Below are positions 43,953 through 60,281 of a DNA stretch of 64,000 bases, piece after piece. The stretch's first letter is position 1. Every line of letters begins with the position of its first letter. The stretch lies in NCBI RefSeq assembly GCF_016595675.1, contig NZ_JAENJH010000001.1, forward strand, positions 496,001-560,000. The letters run 5' to 3'. This DNA is from Prauserella cavernicola. Lineage in GTDB: Bacteria; Actinomycetota; Actinomycetes; Mycobacteriales; Pseudonocardiaceae. The notes below the pieces were generated by a model. The model had not been told where the DNA came from. It did not search any database and saw only the letters and a program-made list of their open reading frames with translations. The position numbers and the translations under genes were made by a program.

Positions 43953-44420
43953 GTGGACGAGGCCGCCGAGACTGTCGTGGAGATCTACACCGACGGCGCG
44001 TGCAGCGGCAACCCCGGCCCCGGGGGCTGGGGCGCGGTGCTGCGGTACGGCCACCACGAACGCGAGCTGTACGGCGGCGAGTCCGAGACCACCACCAACA
44101 ACCGCATGGAGCTCACGGCGCCGATCCGCGCGCTCGAGACGCTGACCCGGCCGTCGGTGGTGAAGCTCTACACCGACTCCACCTACGTCCGCAACGGCAT
44201 CACCAGCTGGATGATCCGGTGGCGGAGCAACGGCTGGCTCACCAGCGCCAAGGAGCCGGTGAAGAACGCCGACCTGTGGCAGCGGCTCGAAGCCGCGGTG
44301 AGCCGGCACCAGGTGGAGTGGCACTGGGTGAAGGGCCACGCCGGTCACCCCGAGAACGAGCGCGCCGACAAGCTCGCCGTCCGCGGGGTCACCGAGGCCC
44401 GCGAGCGCCTCACGTCCTGA
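43953..44420 (+). CDS. rnhA: ribonuclease HI
   Basis: A 155-residue RNase HI that cuts the RNA strand of RNA-DNA hybrids. Catalytic carboxylates are Asp14 ([10 protein letters not shown]), Glu53 (NNRMELTAP), Asp75 (LYTDSTYV) and Asp139 (NERADKLA), with the basic handle [11 protein letters not shown] present as in E. coli RnhA. The GTG start is 6 bp after TAGTCT, so the gene may be transcribed leaderless from its own promoter. The end overlaps the convergent luciferase-like gene by 11 bp. Confidence 0.95.
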
Positions 44421-45417
44421 GCGCGGGCAGCACCGCCTCGCTGAGCAGCCGCACCGAGTTCAGCGAGTGCTCCACCGGCATCCCGGCCCAGTGCGTGCGC
44501 AGCAGCAGGTGGTCGACCCCGAGCTCGTCGCGCCACGGCAGCAGCGCGCGCACGCAGTCCTCCGGTGAGCCCACCACGAACCGCTGCTCCGCCAGCTGGT
44601 CGTAGGGCATCTCGAACGACTCCCGGTCCGGCATCACGCGGTCCTGGCCCCACCGGGCGTAGGTCCGGTACTTGCCGCTCAGGTACGGACCGGCCAGCTC
44701 CACGGCCCGCTCGCGGGTCTCCGCGCAGAAGATCTCCCGCATCGCGGGGCGTTCGGCCGGTTCGGGCACGCCGTGTGCGGCTGCCTCGGCGCGGAAGAGC
44801 TCCGCCTGCCTGCGCACCGTGCCGAGCGTCGCGTGCGGATTGATCATCCACGTGCCCGTGAGGCGCGCGGCGCGGCGCACGGCACCGTCGCTGTTGGCCG
44901 CCATCCATACGGGCGGGCCGGGCCGCTGCACCGGCAGCACCCCGAGCCGCGCGCCGTCGAGGCGGCACCACGGCAGGTCCGCGCCCACGGTGTCGCCGGC
45001 CCACAGCCGCCGCACGACGTCGAGGTTGGACTCGAAGCGGCGCACCTTGTCCTCCGGTGGCACCCCGAGCGCGGCGTACTCGACCTCGCGGTAGCCGAGC
45101 CCGACCCCGAAGATCAGCCGCCCGCCCGTGATCACGTCCAGCGCGGCGTAGTTCTCCGCCACCTCCACGGGGTTCTGCAGGGCGAGCAGCAGGATGCCGA
45201 TCCCGACGCGCAGCTCGCCTGCCTCGGCGGCGAGCCGCGCGAGGTAGGGCAGCGGCTGGATGTGGGTCAGGCCCTCGCTGAGGTAGTGCTGACCGGCGAA
45301 CACCGAGTCCCATCCGCCGTCGCGGGCGGCCCGCAGCAGGCTCAGCTGGTCCTCGAGCGCCTGGCGCTGGTCGGCCCCGATCGGCTGCTGGTTGGTGAGG
45401 AAGATGCCGAACCGCAT
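44410..45417 (-). CDS. luciferase-like flavin monooxygenase at the end of the dicarboxylate operon
   Basis: A 335-residue bacterial-luciferase-like monooxygenase. [83 protein letters not shown] and [16 protein letters not shown] are family segments. A GTG three codons upstream overlaps the CitE-gene stop (GTGA), so translation is coupled either way. Its presence at the end of the CoA-ester operon suggests an oxidative step or a side function; the substrate is unknown. Confidence 0.88.
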
Positions 45418-45422
45418 CGCGC

Positions 45423-46250
45423 TCACCCGCCCGCTCTGGCCAGCGTCGTCCTGGCACTGGCGACGATGGGCGGGTCCACGAGCTTGCCGTTCAGCAGCAC
45501 CACGGACTCGCCGCGCCGCTGCGCGTCGTCGAACGCCGCCAGCACGGCACTGGCGTGCGCGGTCTCCTCCTCGGTCGGGGTGAAGACCCGGTGCACACCG
45601 GCCAGCTGCGCCGGATGCACGCACGCCTTGCCGCCGAAGCCCAGCGAGCGGGCCAGACGCGCCTCGGCCTCCTGCGCCGCGTCGTCGCGCACGTCGAGGT
45701 GCACGACGTCGAACGGCGGCCGCAGCCCGGCCGCGATGGAGGCGAACACGAGCACCGAGCGGGCGTGCAGCAGTTCCTGCCCGTCGGCGCGGAGCTCCAG
45801 GTTGGCCTCGGCGGCGAGGTCGGCTCCGCCCAGCATCAGCGCCACGACCCTCGGGTGCGCCGCCGTCTCGTAGGCGTCGCGCACCCCGGCCGCCGTCTCG
45901 ATCAGCGCGATGACCGGCGGCCCGTCCTCGTCCAGCGCGCCGAGCGCCGACGGCGTCGCCTTCGGCACCATGATCCCGTCGAGCGCGACACCGGACAGCG
46001 CGGCCACGTCGTCGGCGAACCACGGGGTGCCGGGCGCGTTGATCCGCACGAAGCTCAGGCCGCGCGAGCGACGGGTCGCGAACGCCGCCGCGATGGTCGC
46101 CCGCGCGAGCTCCTTCTCCCCCGGTGGCACGGCGTCCTCGAGGTCGGCGACCACCAGGTCCGCCTCCGACGCCAGCGCCTTGGCGAGCTTGCGCTCGTCC
46201 TTGCCGGGCGCGAACAGCAGCGAGCGCGCCGCCTCCAGTGCGAACGTCAC
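45423..46250 (-). CDS. CitE-like acyl-CoA lyase (HpcH/HpaI aldolase family)
   Basis: A 275-residue CitE-like lyase. ARSLLFAPGKDERKLAKAL is the CoA-binding start, VVADLEDAVPPGEK the metal/catalytic Asp-Glu motif, FVRINAPGTPWF the Arg strand, ALIETAAGV the active-site Glu, and GFGGKACVHPAQLAGVH the closing strand. Family members cleave malyl-, citramalyl- or beta-methylmalyl-CoA to an oxo-acid and a short acyl-CoA. With the MaoC hydratase and acyl-CoA dehydrogenase of the same operon it probably performs the final cleavage. It overlaps the PrpD gene by 4 bp. Confidence 0.88.
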   Translation of the reverse strand: MTFALEAARSLLFAPGKDERKLAKALASEADLVVADLEDAVPPGEKELARATIAAAFATRRSRGLSFVRINAPGTPWFADDVAALSGVALDGIMVPKATPSALGALDEDGPPVIALIETAAGVRDAYETAAHPRVVALMLGGADLAAEANLELRADGQELLHARSVLVFASIAAGLRPPFDVVHLDVRDDAAQEAEARLARSLGFGGKACVHPAQLAGVHRVFTPTEEETAHASAVLAAFDDAQRRGESVVLLNGKLVDPPIVASARTTLARAGG

Positions 46251-47635
46251 GACCGCACCGCCGCGAGGAAGCCGAGGTCGGGCAGCTCGCCGAGCCGCGT
46301 CACCGAGTCCTCCAGCGCGCTCACGGCGCCGCCGGAGAGCGCGAGTCCCGCGTTGGCGCGGTACTTGACGCGCACGTCGTCCTCGGTCATCGGGTTCTCC
46401 GCGCCGCCGCGCTGGTAACGCAGTTCGGCCTCGAAGGTGCGGCCGTCTGTGGTCTCCACCCGCACGCCGCCGCCGAACGCGTCCGGCCGGGGCGAGTACT
46501 CGCGCGTCTCGTAGCTCACGCGCGGCGTCACGGCGAGCACCGCCTGGTCGGCGATCGCGTCCGGGGTGAAGCTGCCGACCTCCACGCTGCCGCGCACCAG
46601 CAGGCTCGCGAGGCAGTACGGCAGGCTGAACTTCGCGTCGTAGGGCGTGCGCGGGCGCACCTTGTCCGCTGACGGCTCGAGTACCAGGTCCACCCCGGTC
46701 TTGTCGGTGAACGCCACCACCCGGGCCACCTCATCGGCGCGCAGCGGGTGCTCCCGCAGCACCTCGGCGAGCGCGTCGACGGGCGCGTGCGTGTAGTGGC
46801 ACGCCGGGTAGGGCTTGTAGGCGATCGAGGGCGTGTTCCACCGCTGCCCGAGATCGGCCAGCCCCGCGCCGAGGTCGACCTCGACGCCGTTGAGGTAGGT
46901 GGCGTAGAAGCCGCGCCTGCCCTCGAACACCGTGGCGGGGCCGGTGGCGCCGTGCGCGGCGAGCCGCGCCGCGGTGATGCCCGCCTGCGCGGCCCAGCCA
47001 GGGTGCAGCCGCTTGGTGTCGGCGCCGTCGGCGAGGAACTCCAGCAGTCCCGAGGCCATGCTGCCCGCGATGCCGAGCGCGTGGGCCGTGGTCTCGGCGT
47101 CGAGCCCGCGGGCCCTCGCCGCGGCGGCCGCGGCGCCGAACACGCCGCACACGCCACTGGGGTGCAGTCCGCGGGCGTGGAAGACCCCGCCCGCAGCGGC
47201 GCCGACCCGCGTGGAGACCTCGTTGCCCGCCACCACCGCGGCCAGCACGGTCGCGCCGTCGGCCCCGGCCGCCTCCCCCGCGGCGAACGCCGCCGGGGTC
47301 ACCGCGACGCTCACGTGCGTCACCGACTCCGGGTGCGTGTCGTCGAAGTCGAGCGCGTGGCACAGCACCCCATTGACGAACGCCGCCTCCGCCGCGGGCA
47401 ATCCGTGTGCCACCCCGATGCCGGTCGCCGGCCCGCCGCCTGCGCCCTCCTCGGTTCCCGAGACCACGTAGGCGGCCTCGTCCAGCGCCGACGCCGCCAG
47501 CCCGCAGCCGAGCGTGTCGAGCACGTGCAGGCTCGCCGTCCGCCGCACCTGTTCGGGCAGGTCCTGCGCGCGCAGTCCCGCGGTGAAGGTCGCGATCCGC
47601 TGCGCCGCAGTCGGTGCTTTCTCTGCCAGGGTCAT
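46247..47635 (-). CDS. MmgE/PrpD-family protein
   Basis: A 462-residue MmgE/PrpD protein. TASLHVLDTLGCGLAAS, AAFVNGVLCHALDFDDTHPES, VVAGNEVSTRVG and HPSGVCGVFGAAAAAARARGLD are signatures, and YKPYPACHYTHAPVDAL marks the lid/active-site region. The family includes 2-methylcitrate dehydratase, cis-aconitate decarboxylase and hydro-lyases or isomerases of polycarboxylic acids. No canonical methylcitrate-cycle partner is present, so the reaction is probably on the transported acid. It touches the LivF and CitE genes with 1- and 4-bp overlaps. Confidence 0.88.
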   Translation of the reverse strand: MTLAEKAPTAAQRIATFTAGLRAQDLPEQVRRTASLHVLDTLGCGLAASALDEAAYVVSGTEEGAGGGPATGIGVAHGLPAAEAAFVNGVLCHALDFDDTHPESVTHVSVAVTPAAFAAGEAAGADGATVLAAVVAGNEVSTRVGAAAGGVFHARGLHPSGVCGVFGAAAAAARARGLDAETTAHALGIAGSMASGLLEFLADGADTKRLHPGWAAQAGITAARLAAHGATGPATVFEGRRGFYATYLNGVEVDLGAGLADLGQRWNTPSIAYKPYPACHYTHAPVDALAEVLREHPLRADEVARVVAFTDKTGVDLVLEPSADKVRPRTPYDAKFSLPYCLASLLVRGSVEVGSFTPDAIADQAVLAVTPRVSYETREYSPRPDAFGGGVRVETTDGRTFEAELRYQRGGAENPMTEDDVRVKYRANAGLALSGGAVSALEDSVTRLGELPDLGFLAAVRS

Positions 47636-48411
47636 CAGTCGTCCTTTCCCACGCCCAGAAACGTTCTGCGTACCTCGTCGTCGCCGAGCAGCTCCGAACC
47701 CGCGCCGGAGTAGGTCACGCGGCCGCGCTCGATCACGTAGCCGCGGTCGCTGAGCTCCAGCCCGGACTTGGCGTTCTGCTCGATCATCAGGAAAGTCAGG
47801 CCCGCCGCGTCGCGCAGCTCGCGCAGCTGCTCGAACACCTCGCGCACCAGCACCGGGGACAGGCCCACGGACGGCTCGTCCATCAGCACCAGACGCGGGC
47901 GCAGCATCAGCGAGCGGCCGATCTCCAGCGCCCGCCGCTCGCCGCCGGAGAGCGTGCCCGCCTGCTGCGAGCGGCGGGCGGCGAGCTTCGGGAACAGGTC
48001 GAACACCTCGGCCACGCGGCCGCGGATCTTGCCGCGGTCGCGTTCGAGGTACATGCCCAGTTCGATGTTCTCGTGCACAGTCATTGAGGGAAAGATCGCC
48101 GGCTGCTGCGGGACCAGCGCGATCCCGGTGGTCAGCAGGCGCTGCGGGCCGTAGTCGGTGATGTCCTCGCCGTCGAGGAGCACGCTGCCCTCGCGGACGT
48201 CGATCAGCCCGTACAGCGCCTTGAACACCGTGGACTTGCCCGAGCCGTTGGGCCCGACCACGCACACGATCTCGCCCTGGCCGACTGTCAGGTCCACACC
48301 GTGCAGGATGTCCACGCCGCGGTATCCGGCCCGCAGCCCGCGCACCTCGAGCAACGGCCGCTGCCCCGGCTCGTCGCGGCGCACCTCGGCCTCAGGCTCC
48401 GAGATAGGCAT
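47635..48411 (-). CDS. livF: branched-chain-acid ABC transporter ATPase (LivF type)
   Basis: A 258-residue ATPase. Walker A is VGPNGSGKSTVFKAL, the Q-loop region VPQQPAIFPSMTVHENIELG is diagnostic for LivF, the signature LSGGERRALEIGRSLMLRPRL and Walker B LVLMDEPSVGLSP follow. With LivG, LivM and LivH it powers uptake through a Liv-type importer. Such importers also carry dicarboxylates, urea, amides and aromatic acids. It overlaps LivG by 20 bp. Confidence 0.93.
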   Translation of the reverse strand: MPISEPEAEVRRDEPGQRPLLEVRGLRAGYRGVDILHGVDLTVGQGEIVCVVGPNGSGKSTVFKALYGLIDVREGSVLLDGEDITDYGPQRLLTTGIALVPQQPAIFPSMTVHENIELGMYLERDRGKIRGRVAEVFDLFPKLAARRSQQAGTLSGGERRALEIGRSLMLRPRLVLMDEPSVGLSPVLVREVFEQLRELRDAAGLTFLMIEQNAKSGLELSDRGYVIERGRVTYSGAGSELLGDDEVRRTFLGVGKDD

Positions 48412-49132
48412 CGATGACCTCCTGGTTGGACTTGACCTCGTCGGGCGGGCCCTCCGCGAGCACGCGCCCCTGCTGGAGCACGACGATCCGGTCGGCCATC
48501 CCGAACACGAAGCCGACGTTGTGCTCCACGATCACGAACGCCACGTTCTCCTCGCGGTGCAACAGCCGCAGGTGCTCCGACAGCTCGGCGATCAGCGCCG
48601 GGTTCACCCCGGAGGTGGCCTCGTCGAGCATCACGACCTTCGGGCCCGGCATGATCGCCATGACCAGCTCCAGCAGCCGCTGCTGCCCGCCGGAGAGGCT
48701 GCCCGCCTTCTCCCGCGCCATCCCGCCGAGGCCCACGAGGTCGAGCAGCCCGGCCGCCCGCTCCCGCGCGGCGCGTTCCGGGGACCGCAACAGGCCGAAC
48801 GAGGGCAGCCGGGTCCAGTCGCGCGAGAGCAGCGCGTTCTCGGTGACGGTGAGCTCGCCGAACACCCGCGCGTCCTGGAACGTCCTCGTCAGCCCCAGTC
48901 TGGCTACTGTGGACGGACGACGGCCGGTGATGTCCTTGCCGTCCAGCCGGATGCGCCCGTCGTCGGCACGCCTGCCCGCGGACAGGCAGCTGAGCAACGT
49001 GGACTTGCCGGAGCCGTTGGGCCCGATCAGTCCCACGATCTCGCCCGCGTCGACGTGGAAGTCCACGGCGTCGAGGGCGACGAGCCCGCCGAAGCGGCAC
49101 GTGACCCGCTCGGCCGTGAGCAGCGCAGTCAT
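48392..49132 (-). CDS. livG: branched-chain-acid ABC transporter ATPase (LivG type)
   Basis: A 246-residue ATPase with Walker A IGPNGSGKSTLLSCL, the LivG-type LGLTRTFQDARVFGELTVTENALL, signature LSGGQQRLLELVMAIMPGPKVVMLDEATSGVNP and the switch VIVEHNVGFVFGMADRIVVL. The second ATPase of the Liv importer. The end overlaps the beginning of LivF, and the start overlaps the LivM stop by 4 bp. Confidence 0.93.
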   Translation of the reverse strand: MTALLTAERVTCRFGGLVALDAVDFHVDAGEIVGLIGPNGSGKSTLLSCLSAGRRADDGRIRLDGKDITGRRPSTVARLGLTRTFQDARVFGELTVTENALLSRDWTRLPSFGLLRSPERAARERAAGLLDLVGLGGMAREKAGSLSGGQQRLLELVMAIMPGPKVVMLDEATSGVNPALIAELSEHLRLLHREENVAFVIVEHNVGFVFGMADRIVVLQQGRVLAEGPPDEVKSNQEVIDAYLGA

Positions 49133-50187
49133 CGGCTCTCCTCCTTCCCGGCGCGCCGGGCTCTCGCAAGGTGGACGCGATCGGCCAGCGAGCCGGCGAT
49201 GCCCTTGGGCAGGGTCAGCACCACCACGATCAGTGCGACCCCGAAGAACACCAGGAAGTCCTCACCCTCGGTCTCCCACAGCGTCTCGCGCAGCAGGATG
49301 AACACCGTCGCGCCGAGCGCGGGGCCCCACACCGTGCCGAGCCCGCCGAGCGTGACCATCAACGCGAGGTTGATCAGCAGCACGTCGCGGAACATGATCG
49401 CGGGGTCGATGAACGCCGTCTGGTAGGCCCACAGGCTGCCGATCAGCGCGGTGATGGAACCCGCGACGCAGAACGCCGTGAGCTTGACCATCGTGGTGTT
49501 GATGCCCCGCGCCTCGGCCCCGATCTCGTTCTCGCGCACGGCGAGCATGCTCGACCCGAGCTGTGAGCGCCGCAGCCACACGGTGCCCAGCACCACGATC
49601 ACCGCGACACCGAGGAACACGTAGTAGAACAGCGTCCGGTCGATGACGGCCTCGAAGATGATGCCGCCGGAGCCGCCGGTGAAGTCGCGGAACACCAGTG
49701 CGAGCTCCCGCATCGCCATGAACGCGCCCAGCATGGCGATGGAGAAGTACACGCCCCGCAACCGCAGCAGTGGGTAGCCGACGACGAGCGCGAACACGAA
49801 ACCGAACACCGGGGCGAAGGGCACCGTGTACCAGAACGGCATCTCCAGGTGCGTCACCAGCAGGCCCGCGGTGTAGCCGCCGATGCCGAAGAACACGCCG
49901 TGCCCGAAGTCGACGTAGCCGGTGAAGCCGGAGATGATGTTCCAGCTCGACGTCAGCCCGATCCACATGAAGACCGTGCTGAACAACAACAATGCCGAGT
50001 TGTTGAGCCCGAACAGGGGCGTCACCAGCAGCGCCGCCAGCCCGGCCGCGAACAGGCCCGCCCGCAGTCGCGGGTCGGCCAGCCGCGACGCGGCGAGCGC
50101 GCGGACCGGGGCAGCCGACAGGCGCTGCGCCGCCTTCTGTGGCGGTGGCGCGCCGGGCGTACTGACCGTGGGGGTTCCGCTAGACAC
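49129..50187 (-). CDS. livM: branched-chain-acid ABC permease (LivM type)
   Basis: A 352-residue permease with about nine to ten helices. GYVDFGHGVFFGIGGYTAGLL and LRLRGVYFSIAMLGAFMAMRELALV are LivM signatures, and LALMVTLGGLGTVWGPALGATVFILL is the conserved region facing the ATPase. The N-terminal 50 residues are a non-conserved cytoplasmic extension. The GTG start overlaps the LivH stop by 8 bp. Confidence 0.92.
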   Translation of the reverse strand: MSSGTPTVSTPGAPPPQKAAQRLSAAPVRALAASRLADPRLRAGLFAAGLAALLVTPLFGLNNSALLLFSTVFMWIGLTSSWNIISGFTGYVDFGHGVFFGIGGYTAGLLVTHLEMPFWYTVPFAPVFGFVFALVVGYPLLRLRGVYFSIAMLGAFMAMRELALVFRDFTGGSGGIIFEAVIDRTLFYYVFLGVAVIVVLGTVWLRRSQLGSSMLAVRENEIGAEARGINTTMVKLTAFCVAGSITALIGSLWAYQTAFIDPAIMFRDVLLINLALMVTLGGLGTVWGPALGATVFILLRETLWETEGEDFLVFFGVALIVVVLTLPKGIAGSLADRVHLARARRAGKEESR

Positions 50188-51073
50188 CGGCGGTCACCTG
50201 CTTTCCTCCGCTGATTCCGTTGGGGCGCACCACGAGCACGACCACCACGAGGATGAACGCGGCCGCGATGCCCAGACCCGTGCCCACCGAGGGCACGTAC
50301 GAGGCGAGCAGTGTCTCGATCAGCCCCACCACCATCGCCGCGAGCACCGTTCCGGTCATCCGGCCCACGCCGCCGAGCACCACGATCGCGAACGCCTTCA
50401 TCGTCAGCAGCGGCCCGAGGAACGGGTAGAAGCCCTGCGCCGAGCCCAGCAACGTGCCACCCGCGAACACGAGCGCGATACCGATGCCGAACGCGATGGC
50501 GTAGACCGCCGCGATGTCGATGCCGACGACGCGCGCCGCGGCCTTGTTCTGCGCCGCCGCCTGGATCGAGCGGCCGACGCGCGTGCGGTTGAGCAGCGCC
50601 CACGTGAGCACGAGGATCACCACGGCGCCGAGCAGCATGAACGCCCTCGGGGTGGGGATCGTGAGCCCGAAGATGCTCACCACGTCGGCCGAGTAGCCGG
50701 TGGTGGTCACCCTCGGGGTGCTGCTGAACAGCTTCAGCAGCACGCCCTGGGCCACCGCGCCGATCCCGAAGGTCAGCAGCAGCGACATCAGCGGCGGCCG
50801 CTCGACCACGCGGATCACCAGCGTCCGGCACAGCACCCAGCCGAACCCGAAGCCGAGCGCCATGATCACGGGCAGCGCGATCAGCGGATCGACTCCCAGG
50901 TAGTGCTGGGCGGTCCACGCGAGGTAGGCCCCGATGAGCACACATTCGCCGTGGGCGAGGTTGAGCACGCCCATCACGCCGAACACCAGCGAGAGTCCTT
51001 GCGCGACGAGGGCATAGAAGCCGCCGAGCACGATGCCGTCGAGCACCACCTGACTCAACTGGCCCATACGCAT
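50180..51073 (-). CDS. livH: branched-chain-acid ABC permease (LivH type)
   Basis: A 297-residue permease. LDGIVLGGFYALVAQGLSLVFGVMGVLNLAHGECVLIGAYLAW is the LivH start, and AIVVLGGVGRMTGTVLAAMVVGLIETL the ATPase-contact loop. It pairs with LivM. A 47-bp gap separates it from the binding-protein gene, the longest inside this operon apart from none other above 30 bp. Confidence 0.93.
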   Translation of the reverse strand: MRMGQLSQVVLDGIVLGGFYALVAQGLSLVFGVMGVLNLAHGECVLIGAYLAWTAQHYLGVDPLIALPVIMALGFGFGWVLCRTLVIRVVERPPLMSLLLTFGIGAVAQGVLLKLFSSTPRVTTTGYSADVVSIFGLTIPTPRAFMLLGAVVILVLTWALLNRTRVGRSIQAAAQNKAAARVVGIDIAAVYAIAFGIGIALVFAGGTLLGSAQGFYPFLGPLLTMKAFAIVVLGGVGRMTGTVLAAMVVGLIETLLASYVPSVGTGLGIAAAFILVVVVLVVRPNGISGGKQVTAGV

Positions 51074-51120
51074 AACTCCTTTGTCAGCACGGCGCCACGC
51101 GCCGATGGGCTAGCCGTGGA

Positions 51121-52374
51121 TCAACGCTGCGACCACGGCTTCATGGGTACGATTTCGGCGGAGGCGTTCTCCTCCGGGGCGACGACGACCTGCTCGCCCT
51201 TGGCGTTGAGCTGGATCGTCAGCATCGGCCGCGTGACGTTGGCGCCCTTGAGCCCGCTCGGGTCGCCCTCGCCGGAGTAGTTGATCCGGCCGTAGAACGT
51301 CTCGGTGTCCAGCTCCAGCAGCGCCTCGCGGACCTTTTCCACGTCGACGCTGCCCGCCTTCTCGATCGCGAGCTGCAGGGACAGCGCCACCGCGCTGCCG
51401 CTGGGCGGCATGTACGACGGTTCCTCGCCGTAGCGCTCGACGTAGCGTTTCCGGTAGTCCCCGGCCGTGCCGAAGTACTCGTCGGAGAACTGCGCCGAGG
51501 AGTGCCACTGAGTCGGCGCCATGATGCCCTCCGTCGCGGCGGCGCCGAGCTGCTCCACGAAACCGGGCTCGGTGGGCGCCTGGATCATCACGACGTACTC
51601 CGGCGCCCAGCTCATGCTGCGCATGGTCTGCACCGTGAGCACGCCCATGAGCGTGTGGCCGGCCTCGACGAGCACGTCGGGGTCGGACTGGCGCAGCTGG
51701 GTCACCGCGCCGCGGATGTCGTTGGCGTCGCTGGGCACCCGTTGCGTGCCCACCACCCGCATGCCCAGCTCTCCGGCGAGCTTCTCGGTGGCCGTCTGGA
51801 TGTCGACCATCGGCGCCTCGTCGGTGTGCAGGATGCCCACGGTCTTCGCCCCGCGTTTCGCGAGCTCCCGCAGCGCCGACTCGGTGTAGCGGCTCGTGTT
51901 GGTGAGCGGGCTGAACACGTAGTCGGAGCCCTGGCTGAACACCGTGTCGGCCGCGGCACCGCCCGCGAAGAGGATCCGCTGGTTCGGCTCGGTCACCGCC
52001 GACGCCGCGAGCGTGAGCCCCGACGAGTAGGAACCGAAGATGAAGTCGATGCCGTCCTCGCTGATCAGGCGCTGCGTGAGCCGCACGGCCTGCTCCGGGT
52101 CGGACTGGTCGTCGTAGTAGACCATCTCGACCTTGCGTTTGCGGTCGCCGACCTGGATGCCGCCCAGCTCGTCGTTGACCATGTCGGCCCACAGCTCGTA
52201 GCCGTGTTTCACCGCCTGGCCCTCGATCGAGTACTTGCCCGTGTCCGACACGGCGGCCCCGATGCGGATCGGCCCGTTCGGGTCGTCGGCCACGGGCGGC
52301 TTCGCGCAGCCCGCCGCCAGCAGACCGAGCCCGGCGAGGCCGGCGACCACCGCGCGCGCCCGCCTACCCCACAT
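51121..52374 (-). CDS. Liv-type substrate-binding lipoprotein
   Basis: A 417-residue LivK-family lipoprotein. The signal sequence AVVAGLAGLGLLAAGC ends in a lipobox with Cys23. GPIRIGAAVSDTGKYSIEGQAVKHGYELWADMVND is the family start, and FIFGSYSSGLTLAASAVTEPNQRILFAGG and PTQWHSSAQFSDEYFG outline the pocket. The ligand is not determined by sequence. Because its genes travel with CoA-transferase, hydratase and lyase genes, a carboxylic acid is likely. It overlaps the acyl-CoA dehydrogenase gene by 11 bp. Confidence 0.92.
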   Translation of the reverse strand: MWGRRARAVVAGLAGLGLLAAGCAKPPVADDPNGPIRIGAAVSDTGKYSIEGQAVKHGYELWADMVNDELGGIQVGDRKRKVEMVYYDDQSDPEQAVRLTQRLISEDGIDFIFGSYSSGLTLAASAVTEPNQRILFAGGAAADTVFSQGSDYVFSPLTNTSRYTESALRELAKRGAKTVGILHTDEAPMVDIQTATEKLAGELGMRVVGTQRVPSDANDIRGAVTQLRQSDPDVLVEAGHTLMGVLTVQTMRSMSWAPEYVVMIQAPTEPGFVEQLGAAATEGIMAPTQWHSSAQFSDEYFGTAGDYRKRYVERYGEEPSYMPPSGSAVALSLQLAIEKAGSVDVEKVREALLELDTETFYGRINYSGEGDPSGLKGANVTRPMLTIQLNAKGEQVVVAPEENASAEIVPMKPWSQR

Positions 52375-53527
52375 GAGCCTTGCCTCCGAGCAGCGCCTTC
52401 GCGATGACCGTGCGCAGCACGTCGTTGGTGCCCTCGCCGATCGCCATCAGCGGCGCGTCCCGGTAGAGCCGCTCCACCTCGAACTCGGCGGAGTAGCCGT
52501 AGCCGCCGTGGATGCGCATGGCGTCGAGCGCGCACTGCAGAGCGGTCTCGGAGCTGAACACCTTGGCCATCCCCGACTCGGCGTCCATCCGCGCCCCGGC
52601 GTCCATCTGCGAGGCCGCCCAGTACGTCATGAGCCGGGCCGCTTGCAGCTGGATCGCGATCTCGGCGAGTTTGATCTGCACGGCCTGGAAGTCGCCGATC
52701 GGCTGGCCGAAGGCCTCGCGTTCCCTGGCGTAGCGCAGTGCCTCCTCGTAGGCGCGCTGCGCGATGCCGACGGAGCGGGCGGCGATGTTGACGCGCCCGG
52801 TCTCCAGTGAGGACAGTGCCTGCCGCATGCCCTTGCCCTCGACGCCGCCGAGCAGCGCCGAACGCGGGACCCGGACGTTGTCGAGCCGCAGCTCGCACGA
52901 CTCGGTGCCCTTGTAGCCGAGCTTCGGGATGTCCTTCTCCACCGAGAAGCCCTCGCTCGTGGTGTCCACGAGCAGCACGCTCATGCCGCGGTGTGCCGGA
53001 GTCGCGGCCGGGTCGGTCTTCACCAGCACCGGCAACGGGTTGGCATAGCGGGCGTTGGTGATCCACGTCTTGGAGCCGTTGACGACGTAATGGTCGCCCT
53101 CCAGCCGCGCCGTGGTGCGAATTCCCTGCAGGTCGGTGCCCGCACCCGGCTCGGTGAGCGCGATACCGGTGCGCAGCTCGCCGGTGGCGAGCCTCGGCAG
53201 GTACTGCTGCTTCTGCTCCTCCGTGCCGTGGTTGGCGATCATGAAGCACGAGACGGAGTGGCTGCCGAGGATGCCGGCGATGCCCATCCACCCGCGCGAG
53301 ATCTCCTCGAAGGTGAGCACGAAGGACACGGTGTCGGCGCCGAGGCCGCCGTAGGTCTCGGGGATGGCGAGCCCGAACAGGCCGAGCGTGCGCATCTCGG
53401 CCACGATCTCGGCCGGATAGCGGCCCGACTGCTCCCAGTCGCGTGCGACCGGGATGATCTCCTTGTCCACGAAGGCACGCAGCGAGTCGCGGAACAGCCG
53501 TTGTTCGTCGTTGAACGAGAAGTCCAT
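52364..53527 (-). CDS. acyl-CoA dehydrogenase
   Basis: A 387-residue flavoprotein dehydrogenase. ALTEPGAGTDLQGIRTTARLEGDHYVVNGSKTWITN is the FAD and substrate region, AREREAFGQPIGDFQAVQIKLAEI the third domain, and MRIHGGYGYSAEFEVERLYRDA the closing signature. The catalytic Glu is in IGEGTNDVLR. It would oxidise an acyl-CoA to the enoyl-CoA, for example methylsuccinyl-CoA to mesaconyl-CoA if the operon handles such acids. The ATG has AGGAG 6 bp upstream. 23 bp separate it from the CoA-transferase. Confidence 0.92.
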   Translation of the reverse strand: MDFSFNDEQRLFRDSLRAFVDKEIIPVARDWEQSGRYPAEIVAEMRTLGLFGLAIPETYGGLGADTVSFVLTFEEISRGWMGIAGILGSHSVSCFMIANHGTEEQKQQYLPRLATGELRTGIALTEPGAGTDLQGIRTTARLEGDHYVVNGSKTWITNARYANPLPVLVKTDPAATPAHRGMSVLLVDTTSEGFSVEKDIPKLGYKGTESCELRLDNVRVPRSALLGGVEGKGMRQALSSLETGRVNIAARSVGIAQRAYEEALRYAREREAFGQPIGDFQAVQIKLAEIAIQLQAARLMTYWAASQMDAGARMDAESGMAKVFSSETALQCALDAMRIHGGYGYSAEFEVERLYRDAPLMAIGEGTNDVLRTVIAKALLGGKAHVG

Positions 53528-53550
53528 GGTCACTCCTGGTGGGGATGGGT

Positions 53551-54750
53551 TCAGGCGGTGCCGAAGGCGCCTGCCGCGCGAATGCCCGCGATGTGCTCGG
53601 GCGAGTAGCCGAGCAGCTCGCTGCACAGCGACTCGGTGTGCTCGCCGCGGTGCGGTGCCCGGTGCGGGGCGACCCGCTCGGGCCCGACGCGGACCGGCGA
53701 GGCGACCTGGCGAACCGTGCCGAACACCGGGTGCTCGGTGGCCACCACCATCTCGCGGGCGAGCGCCTGTTCGTCGGCGAGCGCCTGCGGGATGCTGTTG
53801 ATGGGCGCGCACGGGATCGACGCGGCGCGCATCTTCTCCAGCCAGCCGGCGACCGTGCCGCGGACCAGCTCGTCGTCGAGGATCTTCTCGAGTTCGCCGT
53901 GGTGGCGTGCCCGGTCGGCGAAGGTCGCGAACCGGGGGTCCTCCAGCAGGTCCGCCCTGCCGATGATGGTGGCCAGCCGCTGCCAGAACTTCTCCTTGGC
54001 ACAGCCGATCACCAGCCAGCCGTCGCTCGCGGGGAAGGTCTGGAACGGCACCAGCGACGGGTGCGCCGAGCGCGCGGTGCGCTGGGGTTCGTGGCCCGCG
54101 CTCAGGTGCCAGGTGGCGAGGTAGGTGAGCATGCTGATGGCGGTGTCGTACAGGCTCAGGTCGCAGTCCATGCCCACGCCGTCGCGGCGAGCCGCGTGGA
54201 TACCCGAGACCAGCGCTATGGCGGCCACGAGCCCACCGCTGTAGTCCACCATGGACAGTCCGGTCTTCTGCGGCGGTCCGCCGGGCTCACCGCCCACCGA
54301 CATCCAGCCCGCGAGGCCCTGCAGGATGTAGTCGTAGCCGGGTTCCTTGACGCGCGGCCCGGTCATTCCGAAGCCCGACAGCGAGCAGCACACGATCGCC
54401 GGGTTGAGATGCTCGAGGTCGGCGTAGGTGATGCCGAGCTTAGCCGGCACGTCACCGCGCAGGTTCGAGTACACGGCGTCGGCACCACGGACCAGGTCCT
54501 CGAACACCGCGCGCCCCTCGGGCGTTGCCATGTCCAGCGAGATGCTCGACTTGTTGCGGTTGAACGACTCGAAGAACAACGAGTCCTCGCCCTGTGTGTA
54601 GGGCGGCACCGTGCGGCCGACGTCGCCGCCGACCGACGGGTCCTCGATCTTGATGATCTGCGCACCCAGCTCGGCGAGATGGAGCGACCCGAACGGACCC
54701 GCGCCGTACTGCTCGAGCGAGACGATCCTGACGTCCTGCAGCGGAAGCAT
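53551..54750 (-). CDS. CaiB/BaiF-family CoA-transferase
   Basis: A 399-residue type III CoA-transferase. VRIVSLEQYGAGPFGSLHLAELGAQIIKIEDP is the CoA-binding start, NRNKSSISLDMATPEG the adenine loop, and GLSMVDYSGGLVAAIALVSG contains the catalytic Asp. The family moves CoA between carboxylic acids (succinyl-CoA, mesaconate, formate, carnitine). Here it would activate the imported acid. The ATG at 54750 is used; a GTG two codons upstream is also possible. It lies 7 bp after the MaoC gene. Confidence 0.92.
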   Translation of the reverse strand: MLPLQDVRIVSLEQYGAGPFGSLHLAELGAQIIKIEDPSVGGDVGRTVPPYTQGEDSLFFESFNRNKSSISLDMATPEGRAVFEDLVRGADAVYSNLRGDVPAKLGITYADLEHLNPAIVCCSLSGFGMTGPRVKEPGYDYILQGLAGWMSVGGEPGGPPQKTGLSMVDYSGGLVAAIALVSGIHAARRDGVGMDCDLSLYDTAISMLTYLATWHLSAGHEPQRTARSAHPSLVPFQTFPASDGWLVIGCAKEKFWQRLATIIGRADLLEDPRFATFADRARHHGELEKILDDELVRGTVAGWLEKMRAASIPCAPINSIPQALADEQALAREMVVATEHPVFGTVRQVASPVRVGPERVAPHRAPHRGEHTESLCSELLGYSPEHIAGIRAAGAFGTA

Positions 54751-54757
54751 GGGCACC

Positions 54758-55291
54758 TCAGTCCACGGTCAGCGGTTCGGCGGCGACGGGGAACGGGTCC
54801 TTGCCCTCGTTGGCGCCCTGCTTGTGGACGTAGAACGTGCGGACGAAGCTGCACACCACCGCGCCGTCCTGGTTGAGCGTGCGCGTGCGGATGGTCACGA
54901 TGCCCGCCTTGGGCCGGCTGCCCGACTCTCGTTTGGACAGCACGATCGACTCGGACCACAGCGTGTCACCGGCGAAGACGGGGGTGGAGAACTTGACGTC
55001 GTCGAGGCCGAGGTTCGCGAAGGCGTTCTGGGTGACGTCGATGACGCTCTGCCCGATGGCGATCGCGAGGGTGAGCGTGGAGACCACGAGCGGCTTGCTG
55101 AACTCGGAGTCGGCGGCGTACTGCGTGTTGAAGTGCGCCTGGTTGGTGTTCATGCTCAGCAGCGTGAACCAGGTGTTGTCGGTCTGGGTGACCGTGCGCC
55201 CGAGGGGGTGGCGATAGATGTCGCCCACCTCGAAGTCCTCGTAGTACCGCCCCTGCCAACCCTGCCGAACCTGTGGCGACGTTGCACTCAT
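54758..55291 (-). CDS. MaoC-family enoyl-CoA hydratase (mesaconyl-CoA hydratase-like)
   Basis: A 177-residue hot-dog-fold hydratase. YYEDFEVGDIYRHPLGRTVTQTDNTWFTLLSMNTNQAHFN includes the MaoC catalytic Asp/Asn-His pattern, and FSTPVFAGDTLWSES follows. The N-terminal part resembles mesaconyl-CoA and itaconyl-CoA hydratases more than R-specific fatty-acid enoyl-CoA hydratases. It is the first gene of the leftward operon; the promoter is directly upstream, with only a few bases of leader. It would add water to the enoyl-CoA before CitE-type cleavage. Confidence 0.88.
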   Translation of the reverse strand: MSATSPQVRQGWQGRYYEDFEVGDIYRHPLGRTVTQTDNTWFTLLSMNTNQAHFNTQYAADSEFSKPLVVSTLTLAIAIGQSVIDVTQNAFANLGLDDVKFSTPVFAGDTLWSESIVLSKRESGSRPKAGIVTIRTRTLNQDGAVVCSFVRTFYVHKQGANEGKDPFPVAAEPLTVD

Positions 55292-55299
55292 GGCATCGG

Positions 55300-55328
55300 A
55301 AGTTAAACGTCTGACGTATTGCCGTCAA
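55300..55328 (-). promoter_or_regulatory. promoter of the dicarboxylate operon with operator in the spacer
   Basis: On the minus strand TTGACG (55323-55328) and TAACTT (55300-55305) are separated by 17 bp and fit a housekeeping sigma promoter. The spacer contains the perfect palindrome ACGTCTGACGT (55307-55317), which fits the GT-N-AC type operator of FadR-subfamily GntR repressors. The divergent GntR gene is the likely ligand-sensing repressor. Confidence 0.7.
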
Positions 55329-55434
55329 GCCCTCGTTCTCGCCTGAATCGGTTATCTCCCAGCATTTTTTACGCACTGCCAGCACAAACGTTTTTCGCCC
55401 GCGAGTCCGGTCGCTAATCATCAGTCCGCTTCGC

Positions 55435-55440
55435 TAGACT
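55435..55440 (+). promoter_or_regulatory. -10 element of a leaderless GntR message
   Basis: TAGACT followed by 7 bp and then the GTG start of the GntR gene. This spacing places the transcription start at or next to the start codon. No separate ribosome site is present. Confidence 0.6.
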
Positions 55441-55447
55441 GGGCAGC

Positions 55448-56182
55448 GTGAGCAACGTGAGCAAGCAGGTGGTGCCGCACGGGCTCGGTGTCACCCCGGT
55501 GCGGTCGGCCTACCAGCAGATCGCCGACCAGCTGCGCTCGCTGATCGTCAGCGGCGAGCTGTCCCCCGGCGACCGGCTGCCGTCCGAACCCGAACTGGGC
55601 CAGGCGTTCGGCGTCGGCCGCAGCACCGTGCGCGAGGCGCTGAGGTCGCTGAGCTCGCAGCACCTCGTCTACACCAGCCGCGGCGTCAACGGCGGCACGT
55701 TCGTCGCCGACGTCGACCCGCGCACGATCACGGCCTACCTGGAGACCAGCCTCGGGCTGCTCTCCGCGAGCGGTCTCACCGTCGACGAGCTGCTGACCGT
55801 GCGCGAGATGCTGGAGGTGCCCGCGGCGCGGCTCGCGGCCACCGAGCGCACCGACGACGAGCTGGCCGCGCTGCGCACCGCCGTCGAGCAGGAGAACGCC
55901 GAGTCGGGCACGCAGCACGAGCACCCGCAGGGCTTCCACATCCTCTTGCTCACATGTGCTCACAACGGCCTGCTCGAGGTGGTGACCCAGCCGATCTTCT
56001 CGGTGCTGAAGAACCGCTTCCTGCGGGGCAACGCGCCCTCGGAGTTCTGGGATCAGGTGTGCCTCGACCACCAGGGCATGGTCGAGGCCATCGACCGGCG
56101 CGACGCCGACACGGCGGGCGAGCTGATGCAACACCACCTGCACCGGCTACGCGAGGCCTACCTGGAAATGGACCGCCGCTAA
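55448..56182 (+). CDS. FadR-subfamily GntR regulator (FCD domain)
   Basis: A 244-residue GntR regulator. The winged helix is IADQLRSLIVSGELSPGDRLPSEPELGQAFGVGRSTVREALRSL (residues about 25-70); the all-helical FCD ligand domain (about 105-235) has LLTVREMLEVPAARLAA, FHILLLTCAHN (metal His) and DHQGMVEAIDRRD with HHL near the end. These His and Asp positions usually hold a metal that contacts a carboxylate ligand, fitting control of an organic-acid operon. It is divergent from the operon beginning at 55291. Confidence 0.93.
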   Translation: MSNVSKQVVPHGLGVTPVRSAYQQIADQLRSLIVSGELSPGDRLPSEPELGQAFGVGRSTVREALRSLSSQHLVYTSRGVNGGTFVADVDPRTITAYLETSLGLLSASGLTVDELLTVREMLEVPAARLAATERTDDELAALRTAVEQENAESGTQHEHPQGFHILLLTCAHNGLLEVVTQPIFSVLKNRFLRGNAPSEFWDQVCLDHQGMVEAIDRRDADTAGELMQHHLHRLREAYLEMDRR

Positions 56183-56897: not shown

Positions 56898-57116
56898 TGC
56901 GGAGCGCCGGGGGTACCTGACGGGTGATCGTCGTCGCAGCCTTCGTCACCGGTCGTGGCGTAGCGTGCACGTAACATGGCGCGCCGTTTCCGTGCCGTAG
57001 GGGACCCCCTCGGTCGCCCGCCTACCACCGGTCGTAGATTCCTCGCGTAACAAGAGGTGGATCTCGGGGCATCAAGGGGCGCGGCCCAGCAGCCCGGACC
57101 GGAAGGGAAACGCTGC

Positions 57117-60100
57117 GTGAGCGAGGAGTCGTCCCGGCGGCGGCGCGTCAAGCTACTGGGCCTGCTCGCCTCGATCGTGGGAGTGCTGAGCGCGATCCTC
57201 GCGATCGCGATCCCACTGCTACCGGTCAATCAGGACGTCACCACCCTGGAGTGGCCGACGCAGGAGGGCACCCGCGCGGTCACCGCGCCGCTCACCGCAC
57301 AGGCTCCCGTCCAGCTCGAGGCCGAGATCCCGTGCTCAGCGGCCGCCGACCTCGACCGCCGCACCTCCGGTCCGGCCACACTGGTCAGCACCAACGCGCC
57401 CGACTCGGAGGACGGCAGGCTCACCGGTCTCGCGCTGCGCGTCGACAGCGGACTGCTCACGTTCACCACGCGCGGACAGCAGCTCGGCTCCGCGCCGGTC
57501 GGCCCCGGCGACTGCACGATCACCATCCGCTCCGATGCCTCCGGCACGTCCGCGAGCATCGGTGACGAGGTCCTCGCCGCCGCCGAAGGCGACTACCGCC
57601 CCCAGGTCACCGGCATCTACTCGGATCTCGACGCCAACCGCGACGCCATCCAGGGACTGTCGGTCTCGGTGGAGGTCGACAACCGCTGGGACACCACGGC
57701 CACGGTCATCAAGTGGATCGCCATCGCACTGTCGGTGACGTGCTTCGTCATCGCGATGGCGGCGGTGTACCGGCTCGACCACCTCTCGCGCGGCAAGCCA
57801 CCGCGGCTCGCGCCCAAGGGCTGGTGGAAACCCCGGCTGCTGGACCTCGCCGTGGTGGGCACGCTGGTGGTCTGGTGGCTCATCGGGGCGATGACCGCGG
57901 ACGACGGCTACTTCCTCACGATGGCCAGAGTCCGCGACGACGCGGGCTACATCGGTGAGTACTACCGCTGGTACGGCACCGCCGACTCCCCGCTGGCGTG
58001 GTTCGTCGACCTCTACGCCGCGATGACCCACGTCAGCACCCTCGCGCCGTGGATGCGGCTGCCCTCGCTGCTGATGGGCATCGTGTCGTGGCTGCTCATC
58101 AGCAGGGAGGTGCTGCCGCGCCTCGGCCAGCAGGTGCGCAGGAGCAACGCCGCGGCGTGGGCCGCGGGCGCGGTGTTCCTCGCGTTCTGGCTGCCCTACG
58201 ACAACGGCCTGCGGCCGGAGAACATCGTCGCGGTGCTGTCGCTGATCACCCTGTGCGCGGTCGAACGCGCGGTGGCGACCCGCAGAATGCTGCCCGCCCT
58301 GCTCGGCCTGACCACGGCCGCGCTGTCGGTGGCGACCAACCCGCACGGCCTCATGGCTGTGCTGCCGTTCATCGTCGCCGGGAAACCGTTGCTGAAGATG
58401 GTGCGACGGCACGCGCGGCAGTTCGGGTGGCTGCCCATTCTCGCGTCCATCGCGGCCGCCGGGTTCGTGATCCTCAACCTGGTCTTCTACGACCAGACGC
58501 TCGGCGGGGCGCTGAGCTCCACCGACCTGCGCACGGCGATCGGACCGAACCAGTCGTGGCACCAGGAGCTCGCGCGCTACACGATGTTGTTCACCGACGG
58601 CGCCGACGGCTCGATGACGCGCCGCTTCCCGGTGCTGCTCGTGCTGCTCTGCCTCGCGACGTGTGCGGTGGTACTGCTGCGCCGCGGCATCATCCGCGGT
58701 GCCGCGCTGGGTCCGAGCAGGCGCCTGCTCGCCATGTCCGCCCTGTCGTTCGTGGTGCTGGCGCTGACCCCGACCAAGCACTCGCACCACTTCGGGATGC
58801 TCGCCACGATCGGCGGCGCGCTCGCCGCGCTCACCGCGTTGGCGACCAGTACGAACGTCCTGTCGTCGCGGCGCAACCGCGCCGGGTTCACCGCCGCGCT
58901 GCTGCTCATCGCCGCGCTGGCCTCGACGGGCCCGAACGCCTGGTGGTACGTCTCCGGCTGGGGCGTGCCGTGGTACGACATCCCGCCGCAGTTCATGGGC
59001 ATTCCGCTCAGCACGATGCTGCTCGTCGCCGCCGCGGTGGCGTTCGCGGTGGCCGTGGTGGAACACATGAAGCACGACGAGCACAAACCGTACGAGCCGC
59101 CACCGCGGGTGGAGAGCCGCAGTCGCGCGCTGCGACTCGGCGCCGCTCCCCTGTCCATCGTGTGCGCGGTACTGGTGCTCTTCGAGATCGGCAGCATCGG
59201 CAAGGCCACGGTGGAACGGTGGAACACCTACAGCAGCGGCACCGACAACGCCGCCCAGCTGATCGGGCAGAGCTGCGGGCTGTCGGACTACGTCTACGTG
59301 GAACAGGACCCGTTGCGCGGCGTGCTCTCACCGAGCCCCGACCAGCCCAACGTGCCCGCACCCGGCTGGGAGACACCCGAGGGAACCCCACCGGAGCTCA
59401 CTCCGGAGCGGTGGCTCGAACCGGCGCAGGAAGGCTTCTACACCGGCGAGGGCCTGCCGGAGCGTTCCGAGGGACAGAGCTGGCAGCCGCCATACGGTCT
59501 CGGTGGCTCGAACGCCCCGGTGTGGGGCAGCTACGAGCCCACCGGCAACGGCACCGGGCAGCTGCGCACGGAGTGGTATCCGGTGCCGCAGCGCGCGCTC
59601 GACGGTGACGTGCCCGTGGTTGTCGCCGTCGCGGGCCAGCTCGACGGCCCGATGACGATGACGGCCGAGTTCGGCAGGGACACCCCGGAGGGCTTCGAGG
59701 TCGTCGACCGCCGCGAGATCACCGTGCCCTCGGAGTCCGGCTGGCGCGACGCCCGCATCACCGTGGACGGCGCCGCGAAGGAGGCCGACCGCATCCGCAT
59801 CGTCGCCGAGGACAACGGGCTCGGCCCGGACGCGTGGCTCGCGTTCAGCGCGCCTCGCGTGCCGGCTCTGGAGCGGATGACCGACGTCGTGGGCGACACC
59901 CCGACGTTCCTCGAGTGGGCCGCGGCGTTCCAGCACCCCTGCCTGAGCCCGTCGACCGTGATCAACGGCGTGGCGGAGATGCCGGAGTACCGGGTCAGCG
60001 CGGGCGGCTCGTTCCGCGACATCGGCGAGTCGTGGTCCTCCCCCAAGGCGGGCGGCCCGTTCGGCTGGATCAACGTCACGACCCGCGCCCGTGAGCTGCC

Positions 60101-60281
60101 GACCTACCTCAAGGGCGACTACAACCGCGACTGGGGCTCGCTCTACAAGCTCGAGCCCTACGAGCCGGACGCGTTGCCGCCCGAGGCCGCCGAGCAGCAG
60201 CGGACGGTGACCCGCTCCGGAATGTGGTCGCCCGGCGACTTCGTGATCCCCGCCGAGCTCCACAGCAACGTGACGAGCTAG
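57117..60281 (+). CDS. arabinosyltransferase (EmbA/B/C family)
   Basis: A 1054-residue membrane glycosyltransferase of the GT-C type. After a short cytoplasmic start there is one helix (about 12-35), a first extracytoplasmic lobe (about 36-205), then roughly a dozen helices and a large C-terminal extracytoplasmic domain (about 690-1054). IGAMTADDGYFLTMARVR carries the Asp-Asp catalytic motif, and YRWYGTADSPLAWF is a family signature. Emb proteins polymerise arabinose from decaprenyl-phosphoarabinose onto cell-wall arabinogalactan. The GTG start has GGAAGGG 9 bp upstream. It stands alone, without galactan or priming genes. Confidence 0.93.
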   Translation: MSEESSRRRRVKLLGLLASIVGVLSAILAIAIPLLPVNQDVTTLEWPTQEGTRAVTAPLTAQAPVQLEAEIPCSAAADLDRRTSGPATLVSTNAPDSEDGRLTGLALRVDSGLLTFTTRGQQLGSAPVGPGDCTITIRSDASGTSASIGDEVLAAAEGDYRPQVTGIYSDLDANRDAIQGLSVSVEVDNRWDTTATVIKWIAIALSVTCFVIAMAAVYRLDHLSRGKPPRLAPKGWWKPRLLDLAVVGTLVVWWLIGAMTADDGYFLTMARVRDDAGYIGEYYRWYGTADSPLAWFVDLYAAMTHVSTLAPWMRLPSLLMGIVSWLLISREVLPRLGQQVRRSNAAAWAAGAVFLAFWLPYDNGLRPENIVAVLSLITLCAVERAVATRRMLPALLGLTTAALSVATNPHGLMAVLPFIVAGKPLLKMVRRHARQFGWLPILASIAAAGFVILNLVFYDQTLGGALSSTDLRTAIGPNQSWHQELARYTMLFTDGADGSMTRRFPVLLVLLCLATCAVVLLRRGIIRGAALGPSRRLLAMSALSFVVLALTPTKHSHHFGMLATIGGALAALTALATSTNVLSSRRNRAGFTAALLLIAALASTGPNAWWYVSGWGVPWYDIPPQFMGIPLSTMLLVAAAVAFAVAVVEHMKHDEHKPYEPPPRVESRSRALRLGAAPLSIVCAVLVLFEIGSIGKATVERWNTYSSGTDNAAQLIGQSCGLSDYVYVEQDPLRGVLSPSPDQPNVPAPGWETPEGTPPELTPERWLEPAQEGFYTGEGLPERSEGQSWQPPYGLGGSNAPVWGSYEPTGNGTGQLRTEWYPVPQRALDGDVPVVVAVAGQLDGPMTMTAEFGRDTPEGFEVVDRREITVPSESGWRDARITVDGAAKEADRIRIVAEDNGLGPDAWLAFSAPRVPALERMTDVVGDTPTFLEWAAAFQHPCLSPSTVINGVAEMPEYRVSAGGSFRDIGESWSSPKAGGPFGWINVTTRARELPTYLKGDYNRDWGSLYKLEPYEPDALPPEAAEQQRTVTRSGMWSPGDFVIPAELHSNVTS

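Follow-up and report, generated by a model that had tools for sequence, protein, structure and literature searches.

An eleven-gene operon of Prauserella cavernicola that may catabolise a C2-substituted succinate

Two convergently evolved routes of itaconate degradation have been described, a Yersinia type and a Pseudomonas type (PMC12290011; this paper, PMC9875883 and PMC6689899 are all cited from excerpts). The Yersinia type is a three-gene cluster, ripA-ripB-ripC, in which the excerpted text places neither a dehydrogenase nor an MmgE/PrpD enzyme (PMC12290011). For the itaconate-methylsuccinate cluster of Pseudomonas aeruginosa (PA0878-0883) and Cupriavidus necator (E6A55_22580-22600; PMC12290011, PMC9875883), the MmgE/PrpD enzyme was reported in 2025 to be an (S)-(R)-methylsuccinate isomerase, inactive on cis-aconitate as far as the excerpts go, and the dehydrogenase was reported to act on methylsuccinyl-C4-CoA (PMC12290011). 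Matching deletion phenotypes were found in P. putida, of which strain KT2440 has no cluster of this type (PMC9875883), and a survey placed 96.2% of the isomerases in Pseudomonadota (PMC12290011). The mycobacterial Rv2498c system (PMC6689899) employs a lyase of the CitE-like superfamily.

Here we describe an operon in a 64,000-nucleotide stretch (the window) of the 7.2 Mb genome of the actinomycete Prauserella cavernicola. Eleven minus-strand genes at 44410–55291 encode a MaoC-type hydratase, a CaiB CoA-transferase, an acyl-CoA dehydrogenase (ACAD), a Liv importer, an MmgE/PrpD enzyme (hereafter PrpD), a CitE-like lyase and a luciferase-like monooxygenase (LLM), with a divergent GntR regulator of the FCD type alongside; an earlier note, made from the sequence alone, had named these components, and all are present. 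CoA-transferase, ACAD, hydratase, lyase and PrpD occur together in the Pseudomonas/Cupriavidus cluster as well, which in P. aeruginosa also has a transporter, whereas the window operon differs by its Liv import and its LLM. Judged by sequence, the enzyme set is of a known kind, with most enzyme families drawn from different branches than those of the published cluster. We propose, with a probability of roughly 0.55, that the operon catabolises a C2-substituted succinate, likeliest methylsuccinate or a close itaconate-type diacid, as a parallel version and not an orthologue of that cluster; another C2-substituted succinate is a possible substrate. Searching the open-access literature by title and abstract, in which 'MmgE/PrpD' is not searchable as written, we found no description of this arrangement in actinobacteria among the papers listed.

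Operon enzymes and the published cluster

The operon was delineated from the list of open reading frames (ORFs) and from Pfam, NCBIfam and PDB sequence matches. Its ten junctions span −20 to +47 bp, comprising five overlaps (−4 to −20) and five gaps (+1 to +47), with the starts of ACAD, PrpD and LLM chosen inside longer ORFs. Pfam supports every enzyme, LivK and the regulator. The MaoC-type hydratase (54758–55291, 177 aa; PF19315 MC_hydratase, PF01575 and, marginally, PF13452) is closest to mesaconyl-/itaconyl-CoA hydratases and carries an N-T-x-x-x-H-F motif that recurs in domain 2 of the beta-methylmalyl-CoA dehydratase 8hgn and in the compared actinobacterial rows. For the CaiB class III CoA-transferase, of dicarboxylate type (53551–54756, 401 aa; PF02515), the best NCBIfam models are succinate-glutarate and succinyl-CoA:mesaconate CoA-transferase, both under cut-off; the Asp of its SMVD stretch is conserved in 43 of 43 compared rows. 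The ACAD (52364–53527, 387 aa; PF02771/02770/00441) is closest in the PDB to FadE3 (4iv6) and has the Glu of GEGTN, the catalytic base of the family.

The CitE-like short acyl-CoA lyase (45423–46250, 275 aa; PF03328) scored 164 bits against citE and 145 bits against RipC/Ccl, both under cut-off, and matches 6aq4, which we take to be Rv2498c. RipB/Ich is the model that MaoC fits best, at 188 bits. Compared with the Yersinia system, the scores of both proteins are thus about half the itaconate-degradation equivalog cut-offs or less (188 of 340 and 145 of 375). None of the eight operon-region proteins scanned against NCBIfam reached a cut-off among the matches listed, so those models name no substrate.

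To represent the published type, we used eight Burkholderiaceae regions (L169–L176), assigned by layout and by a Glu/Tyr motif of PrpD. At E 1e-10, these had ACAD in 7/8, CaiB beside PrpD in 5/8, CitE in 5/8 and all four together in 4/8: L170, L173, L174 and L175 carry the four, L176 lacks CitE, L169 and L171 have ACAD and PrpD only, and L172 has CitE and PrpD only. Their order is ACAD-CaiB-PrpD-CitE, whereas in P. aeruginosa PrpD comes before CaiB (PMC9875883). Identities, trees and motifs come from a chosen set of rows, 37 from cluster loci and 19 from elsewhere. Window proteins are 32–34% identical to the Burkholderiaceae ACADs (7 rows), 30–37% to their PrpDs (8), 37–43% to their CitEs (5) and 28–31% to their CaiBs (5; this range uses the cluster CaiB, the alignment rows of L170 and L174 being a second CaiB of the region). 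In 13 proteobacterial loci that are of one kind with the window operon, identities to the window proteins are 49–53% for ACAD, 39–46% for PrpD, 30–57% for CaiB, 48–59% for MaoC (12 rows) and 37–41% for CitE (9 rows); as the CitE ranges of both sets overlap, CitE does not discriminate, and the CaiB of L141 (30%) is no closer than those of the Burkholderiaceae.

The trees point the same way, although they were built by a quick method and include several long rows (one very long in the ACAD group), so that deep placement is unsure. Burkholderiaceae rows make up one side of a branch with support 100 in the PrpD tree; in the ACAD tree they (support 98) fall inside an 11-row group whose branch has a length of 2.79 and a support of 100; the ACADs of L118 and L189 and a second ACAD each from L041 and L043 belong to this group too. 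An ACAD accompanies PrpD in the window operon, as it does in 45 of the 47 loci introduced below as module loci, yet the window ACAD is of another clade than those of the compared clusters: taking the seven compared rows as the published type, the window ACAD was not found to be orthologous to the Pseudomonas/Cupriavidus dehydrogenase clade, and it has GEGTN (Glu) where the Burkholderiaceae type has APIS. The gene before ACAD in those regions encodes 280–292 aa matching PF13452 (3/3 examined, of 8), and its window counterpart is the 177-aa MaoC protein, with only the marginal match to that family. On identities, trees and active-site motifs, we rejected the reading of the window operon as no more than the published cluster carried by another host; it is probably not an orthologue of that cluster.

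The MmgE/PrpD enzyme and recurrence of the gene set

The window PrpD (46247–47632, 461 aa; PF03972 and PF19305) has the iminodisuccinate (IDS) epimerase 2hp0 as its best PDB sequence match (E 3.5e-46), and its AlphaFold model (predicted local distance difference test score, pLDDT, 93.3) has the same enzyme as its best fold match (TM-score, TMq, 0.88). It shows the two-domain fold and the carboxylate-binding His/Asp/His/His/Lys/Lys set of the MmgE/PrpD superfamily, its active-site residues by alignment being H92, D95, H106, H152, H157, K207 and K273. The residues named for IDS epimerase, His85, Asp88, His99, His150, Lys198 and Lys266 (PMC12290011), correspond to His92, Asp95, His106, His157, Lys207 and Lys273. 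A Tyr is the proposed second base in methylsuccinate isomerase and in IDS epimerase (PMC12290011), and the position of Tyr145 in the latter is His152 in the window enzyme.

The pair named for the P. aeruginosa isomerase, Tyr148 and Glu91 (PMC12290011), is likewise absent from the window PrpD, which has Asp95 instead, and F151, H152 and A153 in the loop before His157. All eight rows of L169–L176 have the Tyr and Glu pair, compared with 0/13 proteobacterial and 0/18 actinobacterial rows (the latter including the window and L157_A); this Glu/Tyr motif also occurs in a PrpD of L147, where no ACAD match was found. His152 is invariant across 27 aligned PrpDs (the window and 26 of the 80 loci introduced below), and its equivalent is His in 17/18 actinobacterial and 13/13 proteobacterial rows of the chosen motif comparison, the sole actinobacterial exception being L157_A. 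From this pattern we infer a two-histidine isomerase, a predicted isomerase or epimerase of a free C2-substituted succinate. Assignment as a 2-methylcitrate dehydratase was rejected, given an NCBIfam score of 44 bits against a cut-off of 950 and the lowest TM-scores among the family's solved folds.

The same genome holds a second MmgE/PrpD (L194; G000:C55:399000-417000), 41% identical, together with CaiB-like, CitE-like and cyclase-like genes. L157_A, from Rhodococcus gordoniae L157, groups with this L194 enzyme and lies near cyclase and CitE-like genes. The L194 cluster probably represents another, uncharacterised pathway.

The earlier note had looked to conserved synteny as a check on its reading, and the gene set is indeed conserved in many lineages. 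A PrpD pattern scan of one genome per species (84,980 species) yielded 147 confirmed relatives, and we retained the best 80. Within 8 kb, and at identities to the window of at least 45/42/43/35% for ACAD/CaiB/MaoC/CitE, 39 of these 80 loci have at least two of the four partners, 30 at least three and 15 all four, with the set recurring in Actinomycetota and Pseudomonadota. The share of loci with at least one partner by PrpD identity was 6/6 at 60% or more, 9/11 at 45–60%, 18/21 at 40.5–45%, 8/28 at 37.5–40.5% and 0/14 below 37.5%. The grouping is more than chance: Prauserella flavalba retains the entire order, Liv and LLM included, at 83–95% identity, and Amycolatopsis antarctica the entire order except LLM at 71–90%. 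Among three same-genus genomes, one (G001) has a PrpD match of 88%, and G002 and G003 gave none at E 1e-60.

For counts of gene content we defined 47 module loci, with PrpD above 36% and at least one of ACAD, CaiB and MaoC above the set identities; they comprise 41 of the 80, five plasmid records and one further genome locus, with L111–L135 left out. Matches anywhere in the locus were found for ACAD in 45, MaoC in 42, CaiB in 36 and CitE in 24. These counts rest on tblastn, as gene calling sometimes picked the wrong frame, for instance in the CitE of L031; they are lower bounds, absences being uncertain on short contigs, and certain loci come from the same genome (L043 and L044, L040 and L045, L052 and L143). 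Annotated examples come from Azospirillum brasilense Sp7, Rhodococcus rhodochrous, R. gordoniae and Pseudosulfitobacter. A Tistrella stretch has PrpD (only 30% to the window's), ACAD and CoA-transferase without MaoC or CitE. PrpD and ACAD are missing from an Amycolatopsis plasmid stretch that has GntR, MaoC, CoA-transferase and lyase.

PrpD and its partners group differently. The window ACAD groups with those of L186–L188 (support 96), and in operons with window-grouping ACADs the CaiB is 64–69% and the MaoC 52–75% identical to the window's (identities only). The window PrpD groups with those of Thermoleophilia and actinomycete metagenome-assembled genomes (98), while the PrpDs of L186–L195 group with the proteobacterial set (97). 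Such a difference in PrpD clade between operons with otherwise similar enzymes is what an isofunctional swap would give.

Substrate and alternative readings

In the proposed pathway, Liv would take up the diacid, and PrpD would interconvert its free enantiomers via an enolate, the pair of bases being His106 and His152. CaiB would then form a mono-CoA ester with succinyl-CoA as donor, ACAD would yield a mesaconyl-type CoA, MaoC would hydrate this to a citramalyl-type CoA, and the CitE-like lyase would cleave it to acetyl-CoA and pyruvate, or homologues of either. The GntR-FCD regulator may repress the operon until relieved by the substrate or an intermediate, and LLM may act upstream, preparing or opening a parent compound. 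The sequence of uptake, CoA transfer, dehydrogenation, hydration and cleavage of a branched diacid, which the earlier note had proposed, stands as the most likely reading. Its view that itaconate-type routes leave no room for PrpD is contradicted by the published isomerase (PMC12290011); the undescribed entry reaction that it considered may still apply to LLM, for which no role in such clusters was found in the literature.

Several lines of evidence favour a branched diacid: the same five families form a biochemically characterised cluster (PMC12290011), the synteny is kept in 39 of the best 80 loci, dicarboxyl-CoA enzymes are the nearest matches of MaoC and CaiB, PrpD is nearest to IDS epimerase in sequence and fold, and its clade differs among otherwise similar operons in the way expected of an isofunctional swap. 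Uptake genes near the module also fit, as across loci they include TRAP, TctC, MFS and Liv types, which often transport small carboxylates, with Liv found again in L188. Other observations weigh against methylsuccinate catabolism in this form. PrpD is without the second-base Tyr, the ACAD differs at GEGTN from the type in the compared clusters, and two ACADs stand side by side in L041 and in L043, the first belonging to the window type and the second to the Burkholderiaceae-cluster type, so that these types may differ in function. Of the partners, CitE is found least regularly (24/47), the CaiB near the L141 module is only 30% identical to the window's, no NCBIfam model among the matches listed names the substrate, and cis-aconitate decarboxylases fold almost as close to the PrpD model as does IDS epimerase (TMq 0.82–0.85). 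Plain methylsuccinate use also fails to explain LLM and the genes for hydantoinase and amidase that some relatives have nearby.

LLM (44410–45417, 335 aa; PF00296, a flavin monooxygenase) travels with PrpD. Among 150 relatives' genomes, host included, nine had a match at E 1e-70 or better, six of them at 63% identity or more, and in all six (host, G001, L186, L187, L188 and L189) LLM and PrpD share one cluster; that of L189 is otherwise of other composition (PrpD 34%, ACAD 35% and CaiB 31% to the window). The remaining three matches are at 37–44%, and the one region fetched (L193) is without the module. LLM adjoins PrpD in L186 and L187, is separated from it by CitE in L031 as in the window, and shares the PrpD cluster in L034 (73%) and L043 (49%); it was not found in the A. 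antarctica cluster. A RutA-like ring opening was considered: no RutA appeared among 25 listed of 30 matched NCBIfam families, all of those listed were under cut-off and the best PDB match had E 1e-20, so no function can be assigned to LLM.

One further reading, which we consider rather unlikely, sees a third, so far unrecognised and widespread branched-diacid assembly, in which the two-histidine PrpD would act on a substituted succinate that LLM (hydantoinase or amidase in relatives) frees from a ring or amide parent not known as a growth substrate of bacteria. Another, doubtful in our estimation, has the module degrade a larger or nitrogen-derived substituted succinate or maleate, methylsuccinate not being the natural substrate. 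The parent compound would be a cyclic imide, a lactam or an N-heterocycle, and LLM, hydantoinase A/B and amidase would offer alternative ways into the pathway by opening its ring or cleaving its amide. This would account for HyuA-like genes at 11/47 module loci (one at only 25% identity), amidases at 5/47 and, in ten additional regions, HyuA in three (L188, L190, L195), HyuB in the same three and amidase in four (L186, L188, L190, L195). L188 combines LLM, HyuA, HyuB and amidase with PrpD, ACAD, CaiB, MaoC, CitE, Liv and GntR, a second LLM lies between amidase and PrpD in L186, L041 and L043 have their two ACADs, and L042, L043 and L154 carry a polysaccharide-deacetylase-like gene. However, the window operon is without hydantoinase or amidase, the host's best HyuA match (41%) lies ~24 kb past the window, and 36/47 module loci, many on short contigs, gave no HyuA match. 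Hydantoinase-like genes (family 13) also occur near module-less PrpDs (L037, L074, L081, L097), so the link is not specific and serves as a lead only. Near the modules of L034 and L036 are genes for an FAD monooxygenase, an alpha/beta hydrolase, an intradiol dioxygenase and an Fe-dependent alcohol dehydrogenase, suggesting feed from a ring compound; resorcinol-type ring degradation was considered on this account, with such genes lying near 2/47 module loci.

If PrpD were instead a cis-aconitate decarboxylase making itaconate for degradation by CaiB, MaoC and CitE, the presence of such decarboxylases among its closest solved folds and PDB sequences would be explained; yet that route needs no ACAD, which 45/47 module loci have (ACAD being one of three selection genes, of which one was required), and the inactivity of the published cluster's enzyme on cis-aconitate, as excerpted (PMC12290011), also makes it most improbable. 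An ethylmalonyl-CoA-type module or a leucine/3-methylglutaconyl route with PrpD as an accessory is very unlikely too. MaoC does resemble domain 2 of beta-methylmalyl-CoA dehydratase, and a Pseudosulfitobacter module is adjoined by acyl-CoA mutase and MeaB, but the window operon has no carboxylase or mutase gene, and CaiB and the importer indicate an external diacid. A separate cluster of the host (L118, L199) also fits such a route better.

That cluster (L118, L199; G000:C66:270000-288000) holds ACAD, AMP-ligase, CitE-like and MaoC-like genes; it is perhaps of the leucine/itaconate type of actinobacteria, and by mycobacterial gene order it is presumably more like the Rv2498c system. On the Pseudosulfitobacter plasmid (L141), genes for a cobalamin-dependent protein, the acyl-CoA mutase and MeaB come after the module.

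Import, regulation and wider meaning

The Liv ABC importer is complete, with a binding protein, two permeases and two ATPases, all on the minus strand. The LivK-type binding protein (51121–52374, 417 aa; PF13458) has Leu/Ile/Val-binding PDB homologues; LivH (50180–51073), LivM (49129–50187), LivG (48392–49132) and LivF (47635–48411) were named from sequence and synteny. LivH has tblastn matches of 95/90/58% in L031/L032/L188, and LivK, LivM, LivG and LivF accompany the module in the same three loci.

The regulator gene (55448–56182, plus strand; PF00392 and PF07729) diverges from the operon, and a GntR relative adjoins the module in L031, L032, L034, L038, L040–L042, L140, L157, L186–L188, L190, L191 and L195; none was found beside it in L035, L036 and L043. 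A candidate operator at 55307–55327, annotated on the minus strand, consists of the repeat TGACGgcaataCGTCA (55312–55327) overlapping ACGTCWGACGT (55307–55317). Symmetry of the TGACGgcaataCGTCA repeat is retained through a paired change in A. antarctica and disrupted in P. flavalba, and the repeat was not found in eight other upstream regions. ACGTCWGACGT is perfect in the window and P. flavalba and differs at one position in A. antarctica; chance alone would give 1.84 sites at up to one mismatch. These repeats are weakly suggestive of an operator.

At the 3' end, the operon's neighbour (43953–44420) lies on the opposite strand, and a search for a terminator-like site there found none. Downstream of the regulator gene is an EmbC-type arabinosyltransferase (57057–60281, 1074 aa), and a DUF5131 protein (63007–63801) lies close to the window end.

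The operon is mostly explained by the pathway published in 2025, but probably represents a version assembled separately, in which one gene is left unexplained. If the proposed reading is true, the branched C5-diacid pathway would have a third build, beside the Yersinia and Pseudomonas types. The operon would extend the pathway in Actinomycetota, add another isomerase clade that differs in its second base, and give an orphan monooxygenase a defined context.

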